From Synechococcus sp. CO36386bin_29 (GTDB lineage Bacteria > Cyanobacteriota > Cyanobacteriia > PCC-6307 > Cyanobiaceae): a DNA stretch of 42,207 nucleotides. Where the stretch lies: the NCBI GenBank assembly GCA_011523835.1, contig WTFZ01000063.1, positions 1 through 42,207 of the forward strand. The letters run 5' to 3'. Below are positions 2,810 through 42,207 of the stretch, piece by piece (within the stretch, counting starts at the first letter, position 1; the number at the start of each line of letters is the position of its first letter). The notes below the pieces were generated by a model. The model worked only from the letters and a program-made list of their open reading frames with translations, was not told the origin of the DNA and searched no databases. A program made the translations under genes and the position numbers.

Positions 2810-3382
2810 TCAATACGCTGCAATCGAGCGAATCAACAGCTGGATGGACCCTGACCGGTAGCCGGGGTTGGACTCACCGTCGTCTCCAAACCGGGAGTGG
2901 AGCAGTTGAAGACGTGTGATGCAGGAAGGATCAAAGCGGAGTGGCAGCTTGATGGGGCTCGCTCTAACGACAGGTGTGAGCCGTTCAAAGGGAATCTCTA
3001 TCTCGGATGTTCCATCCGACTGGGTAGGCACGGTGGAAACCCATCGCAGGCCCCCGGGAATGAGCTCCGTGAGGCCGAGAACGCCATCGCGGCAAGCCAC
3101 TGCAAATTTGAAACTCCTTCCCTGACCGTCGAGGGACAACCGCAGGCCACGGAAGCCAGTCAGATCCAAGGGGGGGGTGTAGACCGAGGAGCGACAACTG
3201 ACGAAGCCGCCACCATCACTCACCACTTCGCCCTCGAGCATGAGCCCTGAATCGGTGACACGGCAGCCTGCACGGCTTTTGCCACCCATGATCGTGTCGT
3301 TCAAGCTCGACCAGGCATTGAAAGCCGACCCGGATGCAATCACTCGGATTTGTGGAGCGGGCTGGGACGGTGGCGTTGTCAA
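2810..3382 (-). CDS. CIA30 domain-containing protein
   Basis: This 190-aa protein matches the CIA30 (complex I intermediate-associated protein 30) family, a jelly-roll fold resembling carbohydrate-binding modules. Diagnostic segments are WSSLNDTIMGGKSRAG near residues 25-40, the GGGFVSCRS strand, and the RGLRLSLDGQGRSFKFAV core. In mitochondria the family helps assemble complex I; in cyanobacteria its role is not established, though a link to NDH-1 or photosynthetic complexes is possible. Its start overlaps the pgl stop by 4 nt, so translation is probably coupled. A run of eight G (C on the coding strand) at 3170-3177 lies within the gene. Confidence 0.85.
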   Translation of the reverse strand: MTTPPSQPAPQIRVIASGSAFNAWSSLNDTIMGGKSRAGCRVTDSGLMLEGEVVSDGGGFVSCRSSVYTPPLDLTGFRGLRLSLDGQGRSFKFAVACRDGVLGLTELIPGGLRWVSTVPTQSDGTSEIEIPFERLTPVVRASPIKLPLRFDPSCITRLQLLHSRFGDDGESNPGYRSGSIQLLIRSIAAY

Positions 3383-4095
3383 AGACCTCGGGAAGCAGCC
3401 TGATCTGCGAGCACAAGAATCTCCGTGCTCGGAGTGACCAGTTTGGCAGGAGTGCGTTCAGCCGATTCCGAAGCGTCAAGCAGGCGGGACAGTGCCTGAT
3501 GCTTGCCTTCGCCACTGACAAGAAACAGCACTTTCCTCGCTGCACTCAACACCGGTGCCGTGAGTGTGATGCGATCGAGCCCCTTGCCTCGACCGATCGT
3601 GGTCCACTGATCGCGCACCTTCGGTGCATCCGTCCCGGGAAACAGCGACGCTGTGTGACCGTCATCACCCAGACCGAGCAGCATCAGATCGAACACCGGT
3701 GGATCTCCTTCACAGACCTTGGCGAGCAACGATGCAAACGCCTCAGCACTGGCCTCAGCTGTGGGTAGCTCAACGGTTGGAACGGGATGAAAGCAGGCGC
3801 GCGATCCTGGGTGACCAGGTTTCAGAAGTGTGTTGCGCAACATCCGCGCATTGCTGGATTCGTCATCAGCAGCAACCCAGCGTTCATCACCCAGCAACAC
3901 GTCGACGCGATCCCAGGGAAGGTGCTCTTCACCCAGACGTTCGTAGGCGCGGGCGGGTGTGCTCCCACCGGAGAGGGCAATCTGGGCGCGATCGCGCTGA
4001 TCAAGAGCCAAATCGATGGCAGCACCGATGTGCTCAGCGGCAAGGCGGCCCAGATCCTGAGGATCTGAGGCCCGCTCGATGCGATAGGAGGTCAT
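3379..4095 (-). CDS. pgl: 6-phosphogluconolactonase
   Basis: Hydrolyses 6-phosphogluconolactone to 6-phosphogluconate, the second step of the oxidative pentose phosphate pathway. The 238-aa length and motifs fit the DevB/SOL family: ALSGGSTPARAYERL (phosphate loop, residues about 41-55), LPWDRVDVLLGDERWV, and LMLLGLGDDGHTASLFPG, which contains the catalytic His. The gene follows gnd by 10 nt and overlaps the CIA30-domain gene by 4 nt. Placing the lactonase next to the dehydrogenase that uses its product makes pathway sense. Confidence 0.95.
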   Translation of the reverse strand: MTSYRIERASDPQDLGRLAAEHIGAAIDLALDQRDRAQIALSGGSTPARAYERLGEEHLPWDRVDVLLGDERWVAADDESSNARMLRNTLLKPGHPGSRACFHPVPTVELPTAEASAEAFASLLAKVCEGDPPVFDLMLLGLGDDGHTASLFPGTDAPKVRDQWTTIGRGKGLDRITLTAPVLSAARKVLFLVSGEGKHQALSRLLDASESAERTPAKLVTPSTEILVLADQAASRGL

Positions 4096-19000: not shown

Positions 19001-19759
19001 TCACTGACCTACAGCCAACCTTCGGGCCGGCTCAAACGCGCGCAAGGCTTCGGATGATCCCTCAAACCGCCAATGCCAGGGCTCGTAACTCACACCCTGG
19101 GGATTGATGACGGGGAACGACAACGTGAAGTGATAAACAGCAGCGTTGTCCTGAAGCCAGCGAAAGGCACGCGTGTTTTCAAAGGATTGGGAGAGATTCG
19201 TTGCAGGATCTTCTCCATCTCCAAGATCCACCGCATAGCCGGTGCTGTGTTCGGAATAGCCCGGCGGCGCGGACACTTTGGCCCGTTCCGCCGCGGATTG
19301 GTTCCGTTCCGATTTCACATCAAAGAAGATGCTTTTCTGTAGATCATGAGAGCGGTAACCGCTGAGCAGGCGCAGGTCCACACCATCAGCAGCAGCCGAT
19401 CGGCGCATGGCATTCAGAGCAAGAGCCGCATCACGATGCAGTTCAATGCCTGCCTCCACCGGCACAAGCAAGTCGGAGCTTGCTTCTGAGTAGGGGAAGT
19501 GTCCGAGCAGACGGCCATCGGTCGTGGGTTCAGCGTCGATTCCATCCACGGCAACTGGGGGAATCGAGGAACGCCCGCTGAGCCATTCAGGGACCAACAG
19601 AACTGCAGCCATTGACGCTGTGAACAGAAACCCGCAGGCGAGAAACAAGACGAGACCACGCCCCCGTTTCGGAGCTGCGGAGCGACTGCGACGCGCTACA
19701 GGGATATCGTCGCGTTTCTGATCGCGGGATCTGCTGCGTCTGGCGACAGCCCGTGACAC
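19001..19759 (-). CDS. membrane-anchored D,D-carboxypeptidase, VanY/M15B family
   Basis: A zinc peptidase trimming D-Ala from peptidoglycan stem peptides. The 252-aa protein begins with a basic stretch and one membrane helix (LVLFLACGFLFTASMAAVLL, about residues 35-56), placing the catalytic domain outside the cytoplasm. The domain has LLSGYRSHDLQ, the zinc motif SEHSTGYAVDLG and the second His in YEPWHWRF. The GTG start at 19759 has an AAGGA ribosome site. It is the first gene of the long minus-strand run and is divergent from chlP. Confidence 0.92.
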   Translation of the reverse strand: MSRAVARRSRSRDQKRDDIPVARRSRSAAPKRGRGLVLFLACGFLFTASMAAVLLVPEWLSGRSSIPPVAVDGIDAEPTTDGRLLGHFPYSEASSDLLVPVEAGIELHRDAALALNAMRRSAAADGVDLRLLSGYRSHDLQKSIFFDVKSERNQSAAERAKVSAPPGYSEHSTGYAVDLGDGEDPATNLSQSFENTRAFRWLQDNAAVYHFTLSFPVINPQGVSYEPWHWRFEGSSEALRAFEPARRLAVGQ

Positions 19760-23530: not shown

Positions 23531-25291
23531 GTGAGTCAGTCCAGTGTGGAATCCGCAACGGAATCAACCACTGCCAGGCTGCCGAAGGCTGAGCAACGCA
23601 AGGTTGACAGTCGTCATCTGCGGGACCCCCTGCTCGATGAACTCTCGAACGAACTCCCTTTCTTCAGTGAGGACGCTCTTCAGCTCCTGAAGTTCCACGG
23701 AAGTTACCAGCAGGATGATCGTGACAAACGGGAAAAAGGCAAGGACAAGACCTGGCAGATGATGCTGAGGCTGCGAAGCCCAGCTGGCCGCATCCCGGCG
23801 AAGCTCTTCCTGGCCATGGACGATCTTTCCAATCGTCTTGGCGATGGAACCCTTCGTGCCACAACGCGACAGGCCTTTCAAATGCACGGCATTCCGAAAG
23901 GTGATCTGAAAGAGGTGATCGGAACCATCGTTGAAAACATGGGGTCCACACTGGCGGCCTGCGGTGACATCAATCGCAACGTGATGGCTCCGGCGGCGCC
24001 TTACGCCAAGGGTGCCTATCCGGCAGCACGTGAACTTGCCGATGAGATTGCAGATGTTCTCAGTCCTGAGGCAGGTGAAGCGTCTTATCTCGATCTATGG
24101 ATCGATGGTGATCTGAGCTATCGAATCCGTCCTTCGCGGACGGTTAAGGCAGCGCGTTCCCGTCAGCGTGATGCCGGCGTTTTTTCGGGCAGTGATGCAG
24201 AACCTCTCTACGGAGACACCTATCTCCCGAGAAAGTTCAAGGTCGCCGTGACCGTTCCGGGAGACAACTCTGTTGATCTACTAACCCAAGACATCGGTTT
24301 GGTTGCTTTCACCGATGCCTCAGGAGTCCTCATCGGATGCAATGTCTATGTGGGTGGAGGCATGGGCCGCACTCACAACAAGGAGGAAACCTTCGCAAGA
24401 ATTGCCGATCCTCTTGGTTACGTCGGCGCAGACGATGTTCTTGACCTCGTGCAGGCGATCCTGGCCTTGCAGCGTGATCATGGTGATCGTCAGATCCGGC
24501 GGCACGCCCGGATGAAATATCTCCTCCACGACAAAGGGGTGGACTGGTTCAGAAGTGAACTGAAGTTGAAGTACTTCCGTGGTGAGCTCAAAAGTCTTCG
24601 CAACGAGCCGAAGGCAAAACTGAGCGACTATCTCGGCTGGCACCGACAGCAGCCCGGTGTCTGGTTTGTCGGGATTCCCCTGCTGTGTGGGCGGGTTGAA
24701 GGTTCATTCAAGGTTGGGCTACGCGAGATCGTTGATCGCTACCAGCTTGAGTTGCGCTTGACGCCCAACCAGGACATCCTGTTGTGCAACATCGGAAGCT
24801 CTCAGCGCAACTCCGTTCGTGAAGCGCTGTCGAGCCTGGGAATCCAAACTCCGGACGCACCCCCACCGCTGGCACGTCACGCCATTGCATGTCCTGCCTT
24901 GCCGACCTGTGGGCTTGCCATCACTGAATCCGAGCGCATCCTTCCTCAGGTCCTTGAACGTCTGGATGCACAACTCAGCAAACTCGAAATCGAAAAGTCA
25001 CTGCTGTTTCGGATGACCGGATGTCCCAATGGTTGTGCTCGCCCCTACATGGCTGAACTGGCACTCGTTGGCAGCGGCGTGAATCAGTACCAGTTGTGGC
25101 TTGGTGGAAGCGCCAATCTGCAGCGTCTGGCGAAGCCATTTCTGCAACGCATGCCGTTGGATGAACTCGAGAACACTCTTGAACCCTTGTTTGTCAGTTG
25201 GAAAGAGGCTGGTGGACGCAGAGGATTCGGAGATCACATCAGCCGGCTCGGTGAGGATCGGGTGGCTGAACTGCTGGCTTCAGTGCCTTAG
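23531..25291 (+). CDS. sir: ferredoxin-dependent assimilatory sulfite reductase
   Basis: Reduces sulfite to sulfide with six electrons from ferredoxin, using siroheme and a 4Fe-4S cluster. The C-terminal cluster ligands are visible in CPALPTCGLAITE and FRMTGCPNGCARPYMAELALVG. The N-terminal half has LKFHGSYQQDDRD and LRATTRQAFQMHGI, typical of the ferredoxin type. A GTG at 23531 gives 586 aa; a TTG at 23525 adds two residues. Neither has a clear ribosome site. The stop TAG shares three bases with the stop of the convergent VanX-type gene. Confidence 0.96.
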   Translation: MSQSSVESATESTTARLPKAEQRKVDSRHLRDPLLDELSNELPFFSEDALQLLKFHGSYQQDDRDKREKGKDKTWQMMLRLRSPAGRIPAKLFLAMDDLSNRLGDGTLRATTRQAFQMHGIPKGDLKEVIGTIVENMGSTLAACGDINRNVMAPAAPYAKGAYPAARELADEIADVLSPEAGEASYLDLWIDGDLSYRIRPSRTVKAARSRQRDAGVFSGSDAEPLYGDTYLPRKFKVAVTVPGDNSVDLLTQDIGLVAFTDASGVLIGCNVYVGGGMGRTHNKEETFARIADPLGYVGADDVLDLVQAILALQRDHGDRQIRRHARMKYLLHDKGVDWFRSELKLKYFRGELKSLRNEPKAKLSDYLGWHRQQPGVWFVGIPLLCGRVEGSFKVGLREIVDRYQLELRLTPNQDILLCNIGSSQRNSVREALSSLGIQTPDAPPPLARHAIACPALPTCGLAITESERILPQVLERLDAQLSKLEIEKSLLFRMTGCPNGCARPYMAELALVGSGVNQYQLWLGGSANLQRLAKPFLQRMPLDELENTLEPLFVSWKEAGGRRGFGDHISRLGEDRVAELLASVP

Positions 25292-26016
25292 TTGTTATCC
25301 ACGCGGCCGTAAATAGCCATTGAAGCCTCAGCCTTCCAGGCCCAGAGCTGATCGCCATAGCTGAAGTGCCACCATTCATTGGGATGACGGACAAATCCGG
25401 CATGTTCCATCGCTGCCTGCAGCTGGCATCGCCGGTGATGCCAAAGAGCCTCGAGACTCTCGGGATTGATTTTCGCGGATGCTGCGTGATGGTCAGGCAG
25501 TGACTCGGGGCCAATGGCGTCGATCTCTCCCCCCATGGAAAGGGGAGCTCCACACGCATCCGCCAGTGTGAGATCGATGGCTCCACCAGTGCTGTGGGGG
25601 GGCGGTGTGCGCGGATTGTCACTGGGTGGTGCCCAGAAGCGCCCCACATCGCGCCGGACGTCTTCCAGTGCCCTCGTCCATTGCGGCATCGTCGGTTCAA
25701 GGCCTCGCCGCCCGCATTCCTCCCTGACCGCATGGTCAACCATGAAGGCCTGAACACTGACGGGGCGCCAGGCATCAAACACGAGCAACTGGATCGAGCC
25801 GATTTGAGAATCCGGATGCTGGGTGAGGTGATTCTGCGCCTGAGCGAGACGGCTCAGGACGCTCGATCGCACCCTGAAGGGATCACCCTGCTGACCGTAA
25901 GGAGCACCCAGTTGTACGTAAGGATGGGGCTCCAGACAGAGAAACCGCCCCCTGATCGACTCCAGCGGTTCACCGCACTCCTGGATGGCCACATCACTCC
26001 AAGGCCGGCGCATCAC
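25288..26016 (-). CDS. D-alanyl-D-alanine dipeptidase, VanX/DdpX family (M15D)
   Basis: A zinc peptidase that hydrolyses free D-Ala-D-Ala. The 242-aa protein shows the VanX-type Arg motif LLVFDAWRPVSVQ, the zinc motif HSTGGAIDLTLAD with His and Asp ligands, and HPNEWWHFSYG carrying the catalytic Glu and third zinc ligand. No signal peptide is seen, so it is probably cytoplasmic and may recycle cell-wall D-Ala-D-Ala rather than give vancomycin resistance. It follows recG by 43 nt. It is distinct from the membrane-anchored VanY-type protein at 19 kb. Confidence 0.92.
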   Translation of the reverse strand: MMRRPWSDVAIQECGEPLESIRGRFLCLEPHPYVQLGAPYGQQGDPFRVRSSVLSRLAQAQNHLTQHPDSQIGSIQLLVFDAWRPVSVQAFMVDHAVREECGRRGLEPTMPQWTRALEDVRRDVGRFWAPPSDNPRTPPPHSTGGAIDLTLADACGAPLSMGGEIDAIGPESLPDHHAASAKINPESLEALWHHRRCQLQAAMEHAGFVRHPNEWWHFSYGDQLWAWKAEASMAIYGRVDNN

Positions 26017-38902: not shown

Positions 38903-39475
38903 GTGAGGGCTTTAGCCACGTGGAGCGGCGCTGTCGCCGGACTGTTCCTGATTCTCGTCGGGAGCCTGATACAGGCTGCCCTGGTGATTCCTCTGAGGGA
39001 ACTCCCACCAGGGGTCCTGGCTCTGCCTAGCACCTGGCAGGTTCCAGCATTGCTTCTCTGCTCACTTGTGGCAGGTCCCAGAGCCGGTGTGATCGCTTCG
39101 GTTGCTTACCTGACCATCGGTCTTGTGGATTTGCCTGTGTTTCACGGCGGCGGGGGATTCGCTTATGTGCTCACCCCTGGATTCGGGTACCTGGCCGGTT
39201 TCGTTCCCGCAGCGTGGCTGACGGGGCGTTTATCCCAACAGAGCGGAATGAATGACATCCCCAGGCTCACACTGGCAGCCATGGCAGGTCTGTTGCTCAT
39301 CCAGCTGTGCGGTCTGCTCAATCTCCTGATCGGAGCGCAGCTCGGCCGATGGCAGGCTCCCCTATCCGAGCTCATCTTCAGTTACAGCCTTGGTCCCCTG
39401 GCCGCTCAGCTTGCTCTCTGCTGCGCCGCAGGCCTTCTGGCTCGTGGAATCCGCAGTCTCCTCTGGGTGGAATGA
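38903..39475 (+). CDS. bioY: biotin transporter BioY
   Basis: The substrate-binding S component of a biotin ECF transporter, or a stand-alone biotin transporter. The 190-aa protein has about six hydrophobic helices, with the family segments LPSTWQVPALLLCSLVAGPRAG, YLTIGLVDLPVFHGGGGF and LTPGFGYLAGF. The start is GTG at 38903. It overlaps lspA by ATGA. Marine picocyanobacteria that scavenge biotin usually carry this gene; whether biotin synthesis genes exist cannot be seen here. Confidence 0.92.
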   Translation: MRALATWSGAVAGLFLILVGSLIQAALVIPLRELPPGVLALPSTWQVPALLLCSLVAGPRAGVIASVAYLTIGLVDLPVFHGGGGFAYVLTPGFGYLAGFVPAAWLTGRLSQQSGMNDIPRLTLAAMAGLLLIQLCGLLNLLIGAQLGRWQAPLSELIFSYSLGPLAAQLALCCAAGLLARGIRSLLWVE

Positions 39476-39978
39476 ACTCTGCAGAACGCTCAATGAGATG
39501 GAGTCGACGTTCCCTTCGGCGCGGACATTTGCTTCTCATCAGCGCGTTGATGGTGATCCTTGATCAATGGAGCAAAAACTGGGCCCAAAGTGCCCTTCCC
39601 CCTGGCCGGCCGGTGGCCTTCATTCCAGGATTCCTGCAGCTGCGACTTGTTCAGAACACTGGAGCCGCTTTCAGTCTGTTCACAGACTCAGCGCTCTGGC
39701 TCGGTGTTCTCAGCTTGCTGGTCACGCTTGCGGTCACAACTTGGATCTGGTTTCAGCCCAAACGGGGGCTCTGGATGGGGCTGGCTCTGGCTTTTCTGCT
39801 CGGAGGAACCGTTGGGAATGGCCTTGATCGTTGGCGATTGGGCTCTGTGACCGATTTCCTGGAACTGATTCCGATTCAATTCCCAATCTTCAACTGGGCG
39901 GATGTCGTGATCAATCTCGCCGTCATCTGCTTCGCCATCGACGCTTTCCTTGAACGCCATGGCGACACCGAATCCTGA
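39472..39978 (+). CDS. lspA: lipoprotein signal peptidase (signal peptidase II)
   Basis: An aspartyl peptidase of the plasma membrane that cleaves prolipoprotein signal peptides after lipid attachment. The 168-aa protein has four hydrophobic helices and the motifs VILDQWSKNW, VQNTGAAFSL, the first catalytic Asp in GNGLDRWRLGSVTDF and the second in FNWADVVINLAV. ATG 39472 overlaps bioY by 4 nt; a second ATG at 39493 is possible. It overlaps the FHA-PBP gene by 20 nt. Confidence 0.95.
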   Translation: MNSAERSMRWSRRSLRRGHLLLISALMVILDQWSKNWAQSALPPGRPVAFIPGFLQLRLVQNTGAAFSLFTDSALWLGVLSLLVTLAVTTWIWFQPKRGLWMGLALAFLLGGTVGNGLDRWRLGSVTDFLELIPIQFPIFNWADVVINLAVICFAIDAFLERHGDTES

Positions 39979-42121
39979 CGGTCAGGGCATCGCGGCCCAT
40001 CTGACCATCCATCAAGACGATTGCCCCGATCAAAGCCTCTGGCTGCACGGAGAGGGATACCGAATCGGTCGCGATCCAGAACTGGAAATCTGCATCGAGC
40101 ATCCGGCCGTCAGCAGACTGCACGCTCTTCTGCAGAAGCGCAAACGGCAGTGGTGTCTTCTAGATCAAGGTTCAACCAATGGACTCTGGTGGAAGGGACG
40201 AAGGGTCAGAGAGATTGAGTTGAAAGACGGTGATCGAATCAGCCTGGCGCCCTCCGCTGAAGCAGGAGCTCCGAGCCTCGTCTTCGAGAACAAAGCCAAT
40301 CGTGGCGCGCAACGCCTGCAACGCTGGCTCGGGATCGTCTTGCTACTGGTCCTCGGTGGCTCAGGCATCCTGCTGCTTCTCGCTGGCCTTGATGTTCCAG
40401 TCCGAGGTCGCTTGGCCAATGTGCGCGGACCAGTGGCCATCTACGACGGCAACGACAAACCTCTTGATTCCATTGATTCCAGTCGTCACCGCGAACTCTC
40501 CTCTCTATCGGATTTTTCACCAGTCCTGATCAACGCTCTGCTGAGCAGTGAAGACAGCCGCTTCTGGTGGCATCCCGGCGTTGATCCCATCGGAACAGCA
40601 CGGGCTTTCGCCACAAACCTGAGTGGAGGCAAGGTTCTCGAAGGAGGAAGCAGCCTCACCCAGCAACTGGCCAGAAGTCTTTATCCGGACCTTGTCGGTG
40701 AAGGAGACACCTTGGGCAGGAAATGGAAAGAATTGCTGGTCGCCCTGCAGCTGGAAAGCCGCTTCAGCAAGGGTGAACTTCTCCTGAACTATCTCAACAG
40801 GGTGTACATCGGGGTGGGATGGGGCTTCGACGATGCCTCGCGAACCTTTTTCAACAAATCAGCCGGATCACTCACGGTGGAGGAGGCGGCACTGCTGGTG
40901 GGTCTGTTGCCATCACCCAACGGTCATGACCCCTGTCAGTTTCCGCAGCGGGCGCTCGAAGCCCGGAACAGAGTTCTCAACAAGATGGCAGATGCCGGAC
41001 GCCTCTCCCTGGATGCGGCGCGCACGGCCCGACGTCAACCCATAGAACTGGCCAAGACTGCTTGCAGCCAACAATCCACACGTCGATCTGCTCCCTTTTA
41101 CACCGATCAGGTCAGAAGAGATTTGCAGGCCCTGGTGGGCCCAGAGGTGGCAGCGGAAGGCAATTTTCTGATCGAAACCCACCTCGATCCGGTGCTTCAA
41201 GACGTCATTGAACGGAGACTGCGCGAGCTGATCGGCAATGCAGGCGGGCTGGGCATCAGTGAAGGAGCTGCGGTCGTGATCGACAGTCGCAGTGGTGGGG
41301 TGCTGGCGATCGCCGGAGGTCGCGACTACCGCTTCAGTCAGTTCAACCGTGCCTCCATGGCCCTGCGACAGCCAGGAAGCACGTTCAAGCTCATGACCTA
41401 CCTCACAGCTCTGGACCGGGGGGTCAAGCCCACTGAGAGCATCGACTGCAGCCCGATGGAATGGGGCGGGCAGCGCTTTGACAGTCCCTGCAGGGGTCGT
41501 CTGACGCTGACCAGCGCATTCGCCTCGAGCAGTAACACCGCAGCCCTACGTCTGGCCAAACGCGTGGGGCTCGAGCAGGTGATCCGCCAGGCACGTTCCC
41601 TGGGCATCACCACCCCTCTGGATCCTGTTCCCGGCTTGGTTCTCGGACAGAGCGAAGTGCGTTTGATCGAGCTCACGGGTGCTTATGCCGCAGTGGTCAA
41701 CCAGGGCCAGTGGAAACCTCCCACCACGATCCGCCGTCTGATGGATGCGGAAACATGCCGTGAAGACAGTCTGCTGGGATGCGGAAGCCTCGCTCAAACG
41801 CAGGGGAACAACGTGAATGCCGGACGCCAGGCCATCCGTCCGGAAGTTGCCAAACAGATGCAGGCCATGCTCAGAGCGGTGGTCAGAAGCGGCACAGGAA
41901 CGGGTGCGTCTCTTGGAGGACAGGAAGGCGGAAAAACCGGCACCACCAACGATGGTCGCGATCTTCTTTTCATTGGCTACGAACCAACGCGTCATTGGGT
42001 GCTGGGCATCTGGCTAGGCAATGACGACAACAGCCCCTCGGCCAGCACGAGTGCTCTTGCAGCATCTCTGTGGGGAGACATCGTCCGATCGGCTGGTCGT
42101 GGCGGTCTCAAGACGCGATAA
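39959..42121 (+). CDS. FHA-domain class A penicillin-binding protein (transglycosylase/transpeptidase)
   Basis: A 720-aa bifunctional peptidoglycan synthase with an unusual N-terminal FHA domain. Order: FHA (about residues 15-105, with RIGRDPELEICI, HPAVSRLHALL and DQGSTNGLW), one membrane helix (about 123-143), GT51 transglycosylase with the catalytic Glu in LLSSEDSRFWWHPG (about residue 196) and GGSSLTQQLARSLY, then transpeptidase with SxxK as STFK (Ser near 474), SSSN (about 523) and KTG in GGKTGTTNDGRD (about 658). FHA domains read phosphothreonine, so this enzyme may be steered by a Ser/Thr kinase. ATG 39959 is preferred to TTG 39950. Confidence 0.94.
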   Translation: MATPNPDGQGIAAHLTIHQDDCPDQSLWLHGEGYRIGRDPELEICIEHPAVSRLHALLQKRKRQWCLLDQGSTNGLWWKGRRVREIELKDGDRISLAPSAEAGAPSLVFENKANRGAQRLQRWLGIVLLLVLGGSGILLLLAGLDVPVRGRLANVRGPVAIYDGNDKPLDSIDSSRHRELSSLSDFSPVLINALLSSEDSRFWWHPGVDPIGTARAFATNLSGGKVLEGGSSLTQQLARSLYPDLVGEGDTLGRKWKELLVALQLESRFSKGELLLNYLNRVYIGVGWGFDDASRTFFNKSAGSLTVEEAALLVGLLPSPNGHDPCQFPQRALEARNRVLNKMADAGRLSLDAARTARRQPIELAKTACSQQSTRRSAPFYTDQVRRDLQALVGPEVAAEGNFLIETHLDPVLQDVIERRLRELIGNAGGLGISEGAAVVIDSRSGGVLAIAGGRDYRFSQFNRASMALRQPGSTFKLMTYLTALDRGVKPTESIDCSPMEWGGQRFDSPCRGRLTLTSAFASSSNTAALRLAKRVGLEQVIRQARSLGITTPLDPVPGLVLGQSEVRLIELTGAYAAVVNQGQWKPPTTIRRLMDAETCREDSLLGCGSLAQTQGNNVNAGRQAIRPEVAKQMQAMLRAVVRSGTGTGASLGGQEGGKTGTTNDGRDLLFIGYEPTRHWVLGIWLGNDDNSPSASTSALAASLWGDIVRSAGRGGLKTR

Positions 42122-42128
42122 CGAACGG

Positions 42129-42207
42129 ATGAAACAGCAGACCCGCTGGCTCTTGGCAGGAACTGCGGCTCTGGTCGCGCTGATGGTGATTGGCCTGGTG
42201 CTTCAGG
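42129..42207 (+). CDS. N-terminus of an exported or membrane protein (partial)
   Basis: ATG at 42129, 7 nt after the FHA-PBP stop, runs to the window end. The 26 visible residues (KQQTRWLLAGTAALVALMV onward) are a basic start followed by a hydrophobic helix, a signal peptide or membrane anchor. Not enough sequence is present to name it. Confidence 0.6.
   Translation, partial: MKQQTRWLLAGTAALVALMVIGLVLQ

Follow-up and report, generated by a model that had tools for sequence, protein, structure and literature searches.

Here we describe a gene for a class A penicillin-binding protein (PBP) with an N-terminal FHA domain (the type A FHA-PBP), found in a 42,207-nucleotide stretch of DNA from Synechococcus sp. 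CO36386bin_29 (contig WTFZ01000063.1; the whole stretch is referred to as the window), and propose a candidate partner for it, the membrane kinase-like protein STK-A. From the comparison of sequences, we suggest with moderate confidence that a threonine in the linker of STK-A, once phosphorylated, would dock the FHA-PBP. A preliminary description of this DNA had called for a survey of the fusion and of the kinases that co-occur with it; carried across Cyanobacteriia, this survey found STK-A with the threonine motif in 75 of 75 near-complete genomes of the family Cyanobiaceae (completeness of 90% or more, contamination of 5% or less) that carry the type A FHA-PBP, and no such genome with an FHA-PBP and no motif. 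The statement in the same description that no partner kinase or phosphoprotein is known is matched by the open-licence full texts listed, among which none on a kinase that partners an FHA-PBP was found; it is narrowed here to one candidate, which is the sole kinase over the Pfam cut-off in most genomes of the genus and whose kinase domain and linker threonine are gone from most genomes lacking the FHA-PBP.

The FHA-PBP gene (39959..42121, forward strand, as are all features below) starts at an ATG and encodes 720 aa, or 723 aa from an alternative in-frame TTG at 39950, 9 bases upstream. Its product contains an FHA domain (residues 34-96, 40058..40246; Pfam FHA, E 3.7e-17), a membrane helix at about residues 124-145 (40328..40393; hydrophobicity in the sequence), a GT51 glycosyltransferase domain (residues 167-343, 40457..40987; Pfam Transgly, E 9.1e-50) and a transpeptidase domain (residues 436-702, 41264..42064; Pfam Transpeptidase, E 7.6e-33) with SxxK, SxN and KTG present. 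Each Pfam match is above its curated cut-off, and the open reading frame (ORF) with these four parts is confirmed at this position; full-length orthologues rule out a chance or mis-joined ORF. The hydrophobic helix stands between the FHA domain and both synthase domains, and the arrangement described earlier, an intact FHA domain N-terminal of the membrane helix with both synthase domains outside, is borne out by the Pfam domains and this helix. A bifunctional peptidoglycan synthase is the best explanation of the predicted protein. It resembles class A PBPs of the PBP1A family, whose solved relatives include Acinetobacter PBP1a, in having GT51 and transpeptidase domains with all catalytic motifs, and differs from them in its N-terminal cytoplasmic FHA domain and in its score against the nearest NCBIfam model, PBP_1a_fam (PBP1A), which at 431 bits is under the cut-off of 508.75.

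Residues R38, S52, H55, S72, N74 and G75 of the FHA domain and the catalytic residues E198, E258, S474/K477 (SxxK), S524/N526 (SxN) and K659 (KTG) were compared in an alignment of 68 type A rows (67 distinct proteins, since the window protein and L002 are one), 15 rows from other cyanobacterial families and 4 rows of a second type, B, described below. All were invariant wherever rows were uncut: R38, S52 and N74 are present in 68 of 68 type A, 15 of 15 other-family and 4 of 4 type B rows, E198 in all 68 type A rows, and E258 in 67 of 68, with one gap. Loss of the phosphopeptide-binding residues in orthologues had been raised earlier as a possible objection, and none is lost in uncut rows. As the preliminary description proposed, such a design could couple Ser/Thr phosphorylation to wall synthesis.

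FHA-PBPs, named in that description as a cyanobacterial architecture, are indeed already known and widespread across Cyanobacteriia. Of the 30 other genomes in the genus, 26 have full-length orthologues (68-89% identity) and 2 more have fragments, and an orthologue is present in 24 of 24 near-complete genomes; an FHA domain is found in 29 of 31 genomes, again including all 24 near-complete ones. In a family sample of 201 genomes, 101 have an FHA domain and 96 the type A FHA-PBP (counting rows with 56% identity or more). Among 290 genomes sampled from the class, the non-family matches listed nearly all cover the FHA region, at about 41-49% identity, and the FHA residues are present in 15 of 15 non-family rows. 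Because of this distribution over genus, family and class, we read the fusion as ancient and general in cyanobacteria and as lost in some lineages, chiefly streamlined ones. The idea that FHA-less lineages keep an FHA-less orthologue was rejected: their best listed matches are ordinary PBPs (about 36-40% identity) and the gene beside lspA is gone. lspA neighbours the FHA-PBP in relatives too and marks the empty site; in the genomes without the type A gene (type A-minus) that were read, nothing of an intact FHA-PBP lies between lspA and the next gene. Decayed relics of an FHA-PBP C-terminus were seen beside lspA in G100 (L216:1970-2440, with a KTGTT remnant) and in G059, which is Prochlorococcus sp. 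MIT 0701 (C39:227933-228049).

Of the 24 near-complete genomes in the genus, 22 encode exactly one FHA, 19 have just one Pfam Pkinase match above the cut-off, and 18 combine the two; in those 18, STK-A is the sole kinase over the cut-off and the FHA-PBP the sole FHA protein. The second FHA copy in G027 has equal ORF length and lies on a different contig. Weaker kinase matches of about 20 bits, present in nearly every genome of the genus, are probably ABC1/UbiB-type proteins. The window genome (206 contigs, 85% complete), whose STK-A is 81% identical to that of marine Synechococcus WH7803, has one more Pkinase match that exceeds the cut-off (L073:1285-2366), an apparent fusion of a nucleotide-cyclase-like domain with a kinase, truncated at the contig end; the kinase lysine of this fusion looks intact. 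The kinase of the type B cluster was set aside as a partner of the window protein, since in the genus only G007 among 31 genomes has that kinase and extra FHA proteins. STK-A is divergent from EgtB-/EgtD-like genes (L072:778-2853 and 2884-4095 in G000), which we take to be of the ergothioneine type, and has such neighbours likewise in L079, L080, L083 and L084.

STK-A consists of a kinase domain, a linker, a single membrane helix and an outer domain with a helical part and a beta-sandwich. Its kinase domain matches Pfam Pkinase above the cut-off, and in a structure predicted for the WH7803 protein from a 26-row alignment, residues 17-278 adopt a fold resembling PknB (Z 26.0, rmsd 2.5, 241 residues aligned). 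The catalytic Asp and Asn and the DFG are kept. A search for HxDxxxxN found the pattern in 87 of 92 type A STK-A genes; the 5 missed are contig-edge ORFs, 4 ending before the motif and one (G077) extended and outside the pattern's window. The window of the DxG pattern search missed several full-length genes, and the DFG figures were taken from alignments read instead. Homologues outside the family have the canonical CVLKE lysine in 23 of 26 cases and HRD and DFG in 26 of 26; each of these is the top match out of the many kinases in its genome and may be a paralogue. The beta-sandwich is like GOLD, PPC and other sandwiches (best Z 12.2, rmsd 2.0, 92 residues), a resemblance too unspecific to point to a ligand. 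In L377, L381, L382, L379, L380, L124 and L125 the outer domain survives by itself, as a membrane protein of about 310-335 aa; it persists after deletion of the kinase domain and therefore has its own function. One STK-A gene of cyanobacterial type is held by a record titled as a Bifidobacterium breve metagenome-assembled genome (MAG; L373), probably a mislabelled record.

Right behind the kinase domain, in the linker before the membrane helix, STK-A carries the motif [DEA][RS]TxxL, with the threonine at position 291 of the G000 protein and the leucine at +3. Thr291 and Leu294 are invariant in 78 full-length genes; the linker beyond the motif varies, and measures 30-118 aa in 71 genes. The fold alignment with PknB and PknA stops at residues 278-280, before Thr291, and the pLDDT is below 50 at residues 291-326, from which the model suggests that the threonine opens a disordered linker. 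Leucine at +3 fits the preferences of other FHA domains. A related linker threonine motif occurs in 16 of 26 homologues outside the family, against 0.7 expected from shuffles, a count tempered by the fact that the pattern was drawn after 6 of the 26 rows had been seen; 10 of the remaining 20 match.

In the mechanism that we propose, a signal acting on STK-A's outer domain would alter phosphorylation of the linker, phosphorylated Thr291 in its motif would bind the cytoplasmic FHA domain of the FHA-PBP, and the linker phosphothreonine would recruit or hold the synthase, or release it, with an effect on wall synthesis. We infer the phosphorylation of Thr291, the FHA binding and the wall-synthesis effect alike. 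No adaptor would be needed, because synthase and FHA domain are parts of one protein. More tentatively, the pair may form a picocyanobacterial minimal circuit in which a single membrane kinase or pseudokinase is matched with a single reader, the wall synthase itself, derived from a pan-cyanobacterial pair with a canonical kinase.

Of the type B FHA-PBPs (at least 31 rows among the matches listed, 41-44% identity), six loci were read, and each has five clustered genes in one and the same order: besides the FHA-PBP, they encode a small FHA membrane protein, a kinase, a vWA protein and a PP2C phosphatase. The FHA-PBP is divergent from the other four genes (L074:5492-11634 in G007; also L075, L076, L077, L078 and L085), and the cluster kinase has a CxxC-rich C-terminal end. 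Filing the cluster as a TerY-P triad was considered and set aside: Pfam matches vWA, PP2C_2 and Pkinase, and PADLOC finds TerY only weakly (E 0.0022) and leaves the phosphatase unmatched. By its gene order the cluster links an FHA-PBP with a kinase and a phosphatase, and lends strong general support to the earlier idea of coupling, in another protein than that of the window. In G059, a tandem-FHA ABC transporter resembling Rv1747 (L126:2348-4705) sits in a kinase-vWA-PP2C cluster at the place of the type B FHA-PBP; its ORF was rejected as an FHA-PBP, and the cluster appears to be the same signalling core with a different FHA output. Transporters of the Rv1747 type likewise fuse an FHA domain to a membrane output module addressable by a Ser/Thr kinase, the output being a transporter rather than the wall synthase of the FHA-PBP.

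Among the 96 type A genomes, 92 yielded an STK-A gene, as did 18 type A-minus genomes; the type A genomes yielding none (G164, G169, G179 and G183) are all less than 90% complete. The motif is present in 89 of 89 type A STK-A genes with an assembled linker, 3 others being cut before it, and in 3 of 18 type A-minus genes (G117, G059 and G153, the last from a 78% complete genome whose sister genomes carry the FHA-PBP). Minus genomes that keep the gene mostly have decayed kinase motifs or a deleted kinase domain, with the outer domain retained. DFG is changed to DGG or EGG, the activation segment deleted and the motif gone in G034, G090, G197 and G218, and the whole kinase domain is deleted in G139, G157, G055, G058 and G082. 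Synechococcus sp. GFB01 has lost the N-lobe and its DRT reads EPS; further named examples beside it are MU1642 and a Vulcanococcus MAG. HGD, DFG and the motif are gone in G039, G120 and G142, though all three retain a type B FHA-PBP together with the kinase cluster that belongs to it. Decay is partial in the MIT 0701 group, where the catalytic Asn is lost and the motif reads DRT in G059 and DRP, with Pro for Thr and the surrounding segment kept, in G100; together with the relics beside lspA, this partial decay is as expected of a recent loss.

Several observations weigh against the proposed docking, or limit what the pattern of loss can say. Among 55 near-complete family genomes without the FHA-PBP, the motif was seen in 2 among the STK-A genes read, and 3 of the 55 (G186, G078 and G141) carry further, weak STK-A matches. 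The complete genome G117 has no FHA-PBP, lspA being followed by the next gene, yet has an intact STK-A with its motif; recent loss of the FHA-PBP is a candidate account that would explain it. G059 retains the motif with the catalytic Asn gone. Four incomplete named genomes (L309, L318, L319 and L337) keep the motif with no FHA-PBP found, an absence that is probably due to assembly gaps. Losses are also few: the FHA-PBP state changes 6 times on a tree of the STK-A outer domain (111 rows; trees were built by a quick method and do not include six type A genes that end short of the outer domain). Four independent pairs fall on well-supported branches, of which 2-4 over random pairings are concordant (mean 3.6) and 0 discordant, and a sign test on independent pairs gives a median p of 0.125; the evidence for co-loss is suggestive, not significant. 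This pair test left out G153, L309, L318, L319 and L337 and added the named rows L314, L351, L361, L364, L377, L381 and L382, of which the last three come from genomes where even an ordinary PBP was not found; 45 of 74 named loci were examined for the FHA-PBP. A further difficulty lies in the kinase itself, where the VAIK lysine is replaced by Arg in 29 of 29 type A-plus rows and the glycine loop is degenerate. Because of this Arg the activity of STK-A is in doubt; STK-A may have weak activity, or may serve as a scaffold on which a different, non-Hanks kinase places the phosphate.

Many of the losses fall in genome-reduced lineages, where both genes could go uncoupled, which could produce part of the pattern. 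An account by streamlining alone, with STK-A and the FHA-PBP in one dispensable set and the FHA domain reading some other phosphoprotein, gains from this clustering, from the small number of independent events (4-6, with the p value above) and from the intact STK-A of G117. We nevertheless consider it unlikely, since decay is limited to the kinase domain and linker motif and the outer domain of the same protein stays, since decay is also seen in G039, G120 and G142 (2.4 Mb) and in GFB01, which keep the type B FHA-PBP or pieces, and since most genomes of the genus offer no second FHA or kinase over the cut-off.

The main structural rival concerns the motif itself, which might be the C-terminal tail of the kinase fold and go with the kinase domain. 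STK-A would then phosphorylate another protein, such as the partner of the FHA-PBP or a wall enzyme, and the FHA domain would read the phosphothreonine there. P279, G283 and P284 ahead of the motif are likewise invariant, and because of this conserved GP the segment may pack partly on the kinase; the prediction for residues 281-290 is moderately confident (mean pLDDT 72), and most minus genes lost kinase and motif together. Against this rival, Thr291 and Leu294 lie past the aligned fold, at the start of the stretch of low pLDDT, and are invariant all the same; G100 has exchanged the threonine in an otherwise kept segment, and in canonical relatives the related motifs sit farther from the kinase domain. 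We regard a role as kinase tail as less probable still than streamlining. Least probable of all, and in our view improbable, is that the FHA domain is a constitutive protein-protein module, or has an intramolecular or non-threonine ligand, with no phosphosignalling. The missing VAIK lysine of the family would suit such a module, but the phosphothreonine-contact residues are invariant across the 67 distinct type A and 15 other-family rows, which a structural role would not demand, and the paralogous type B FHA-PBP stands beside a kinase and a PP2C phosphatase in every locus read. Docking of the FHA-PBP on the STK-A linker threonine remains the reading that we prefer.

By analogy, the closest precedent for such docking is the mycobacterial FhaA system, whose PknB-MurJ-FhaA link was reportedly first described in 2012. 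The two are alike in combining an FHA domain, a membrane kinase or pseudokinase domain and phosphothreonine docking in the control of peptidoglycan, here as predicted from sequence. They differ in that the mycobacterial adaptor FhaA is a protein of its own and its kinase partner PknB is of the canonical PASTA type, whereas here the FHA domain is fused to a class A synthase and STK-A has no PASTA match and a degenerate ATP site. In Mycobacterium tuberculosis, according to passages of one account, the pseudokinase domain of MurJ (MviN), phosphorylated by PknB, binds FhaA, and phospho-CwlM binds FhaA via Thr382 (PMC6180346). For marine picocyanobacteria, passages of Zhang and others (2007) report single serine/threonine kinase (STK) genes in MIT9313, CC9902, CC9605 and CC9311, no STK gene in WH8102 and four Prochlorococcus strains, and a grouping of the marine genes with Slr1443 (PMC2176072); judging from gene content, these marine single-copy genes are presumably STK-A. 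For Slr1443 (SpkE), passages of a later source state that kinase activity could not at first be found but was subsequently reported (PMC11863333). Family STK-A differs from the SpkE group in lacking the VAIK lysine and glycine loop, and no link of that group to an FHA or penicillin-binding protein was found in the passages of these two sources (PMC2176072; PMC11863333).

Upstream of the FHA-PBP in the window, lspA (signal peptidase II, 39412..39978) overlaps its ATG end by 20 bases. Downstream lies a gene for a membrane protein (42129..42207), cut by the window end, which comes immediately after lspA in genomes lacking the FHA-PBP. Elsewhere, at 19004-19759 and 25291-26016, the window contains two putative D-Ala-D-Ala peptidase genes (VanY, Peptidase_M15).

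This comparison adds a hypothesis that names one partner and one docking site, for which the comparative support is real but limited, and a second cluster joining an FHA-PBP to a kinase and a phosphatase. An unexplained cyanobacteria-wide domain fusion becomes a testable pair, a single FHA domain and a single threonine. For the reader and the kinase role alike, most genomes of the genus offer no rival over the Pfam cut-offs, and exchanging that threonine for alanine would test cleanly whether Ser/Thr phosphorylation steers wall synthesis. If true, the pair would provide a direct route from phosphosignal to synthase in abundant marine photosynthesisers, without adaptors of the mycobacterial type.

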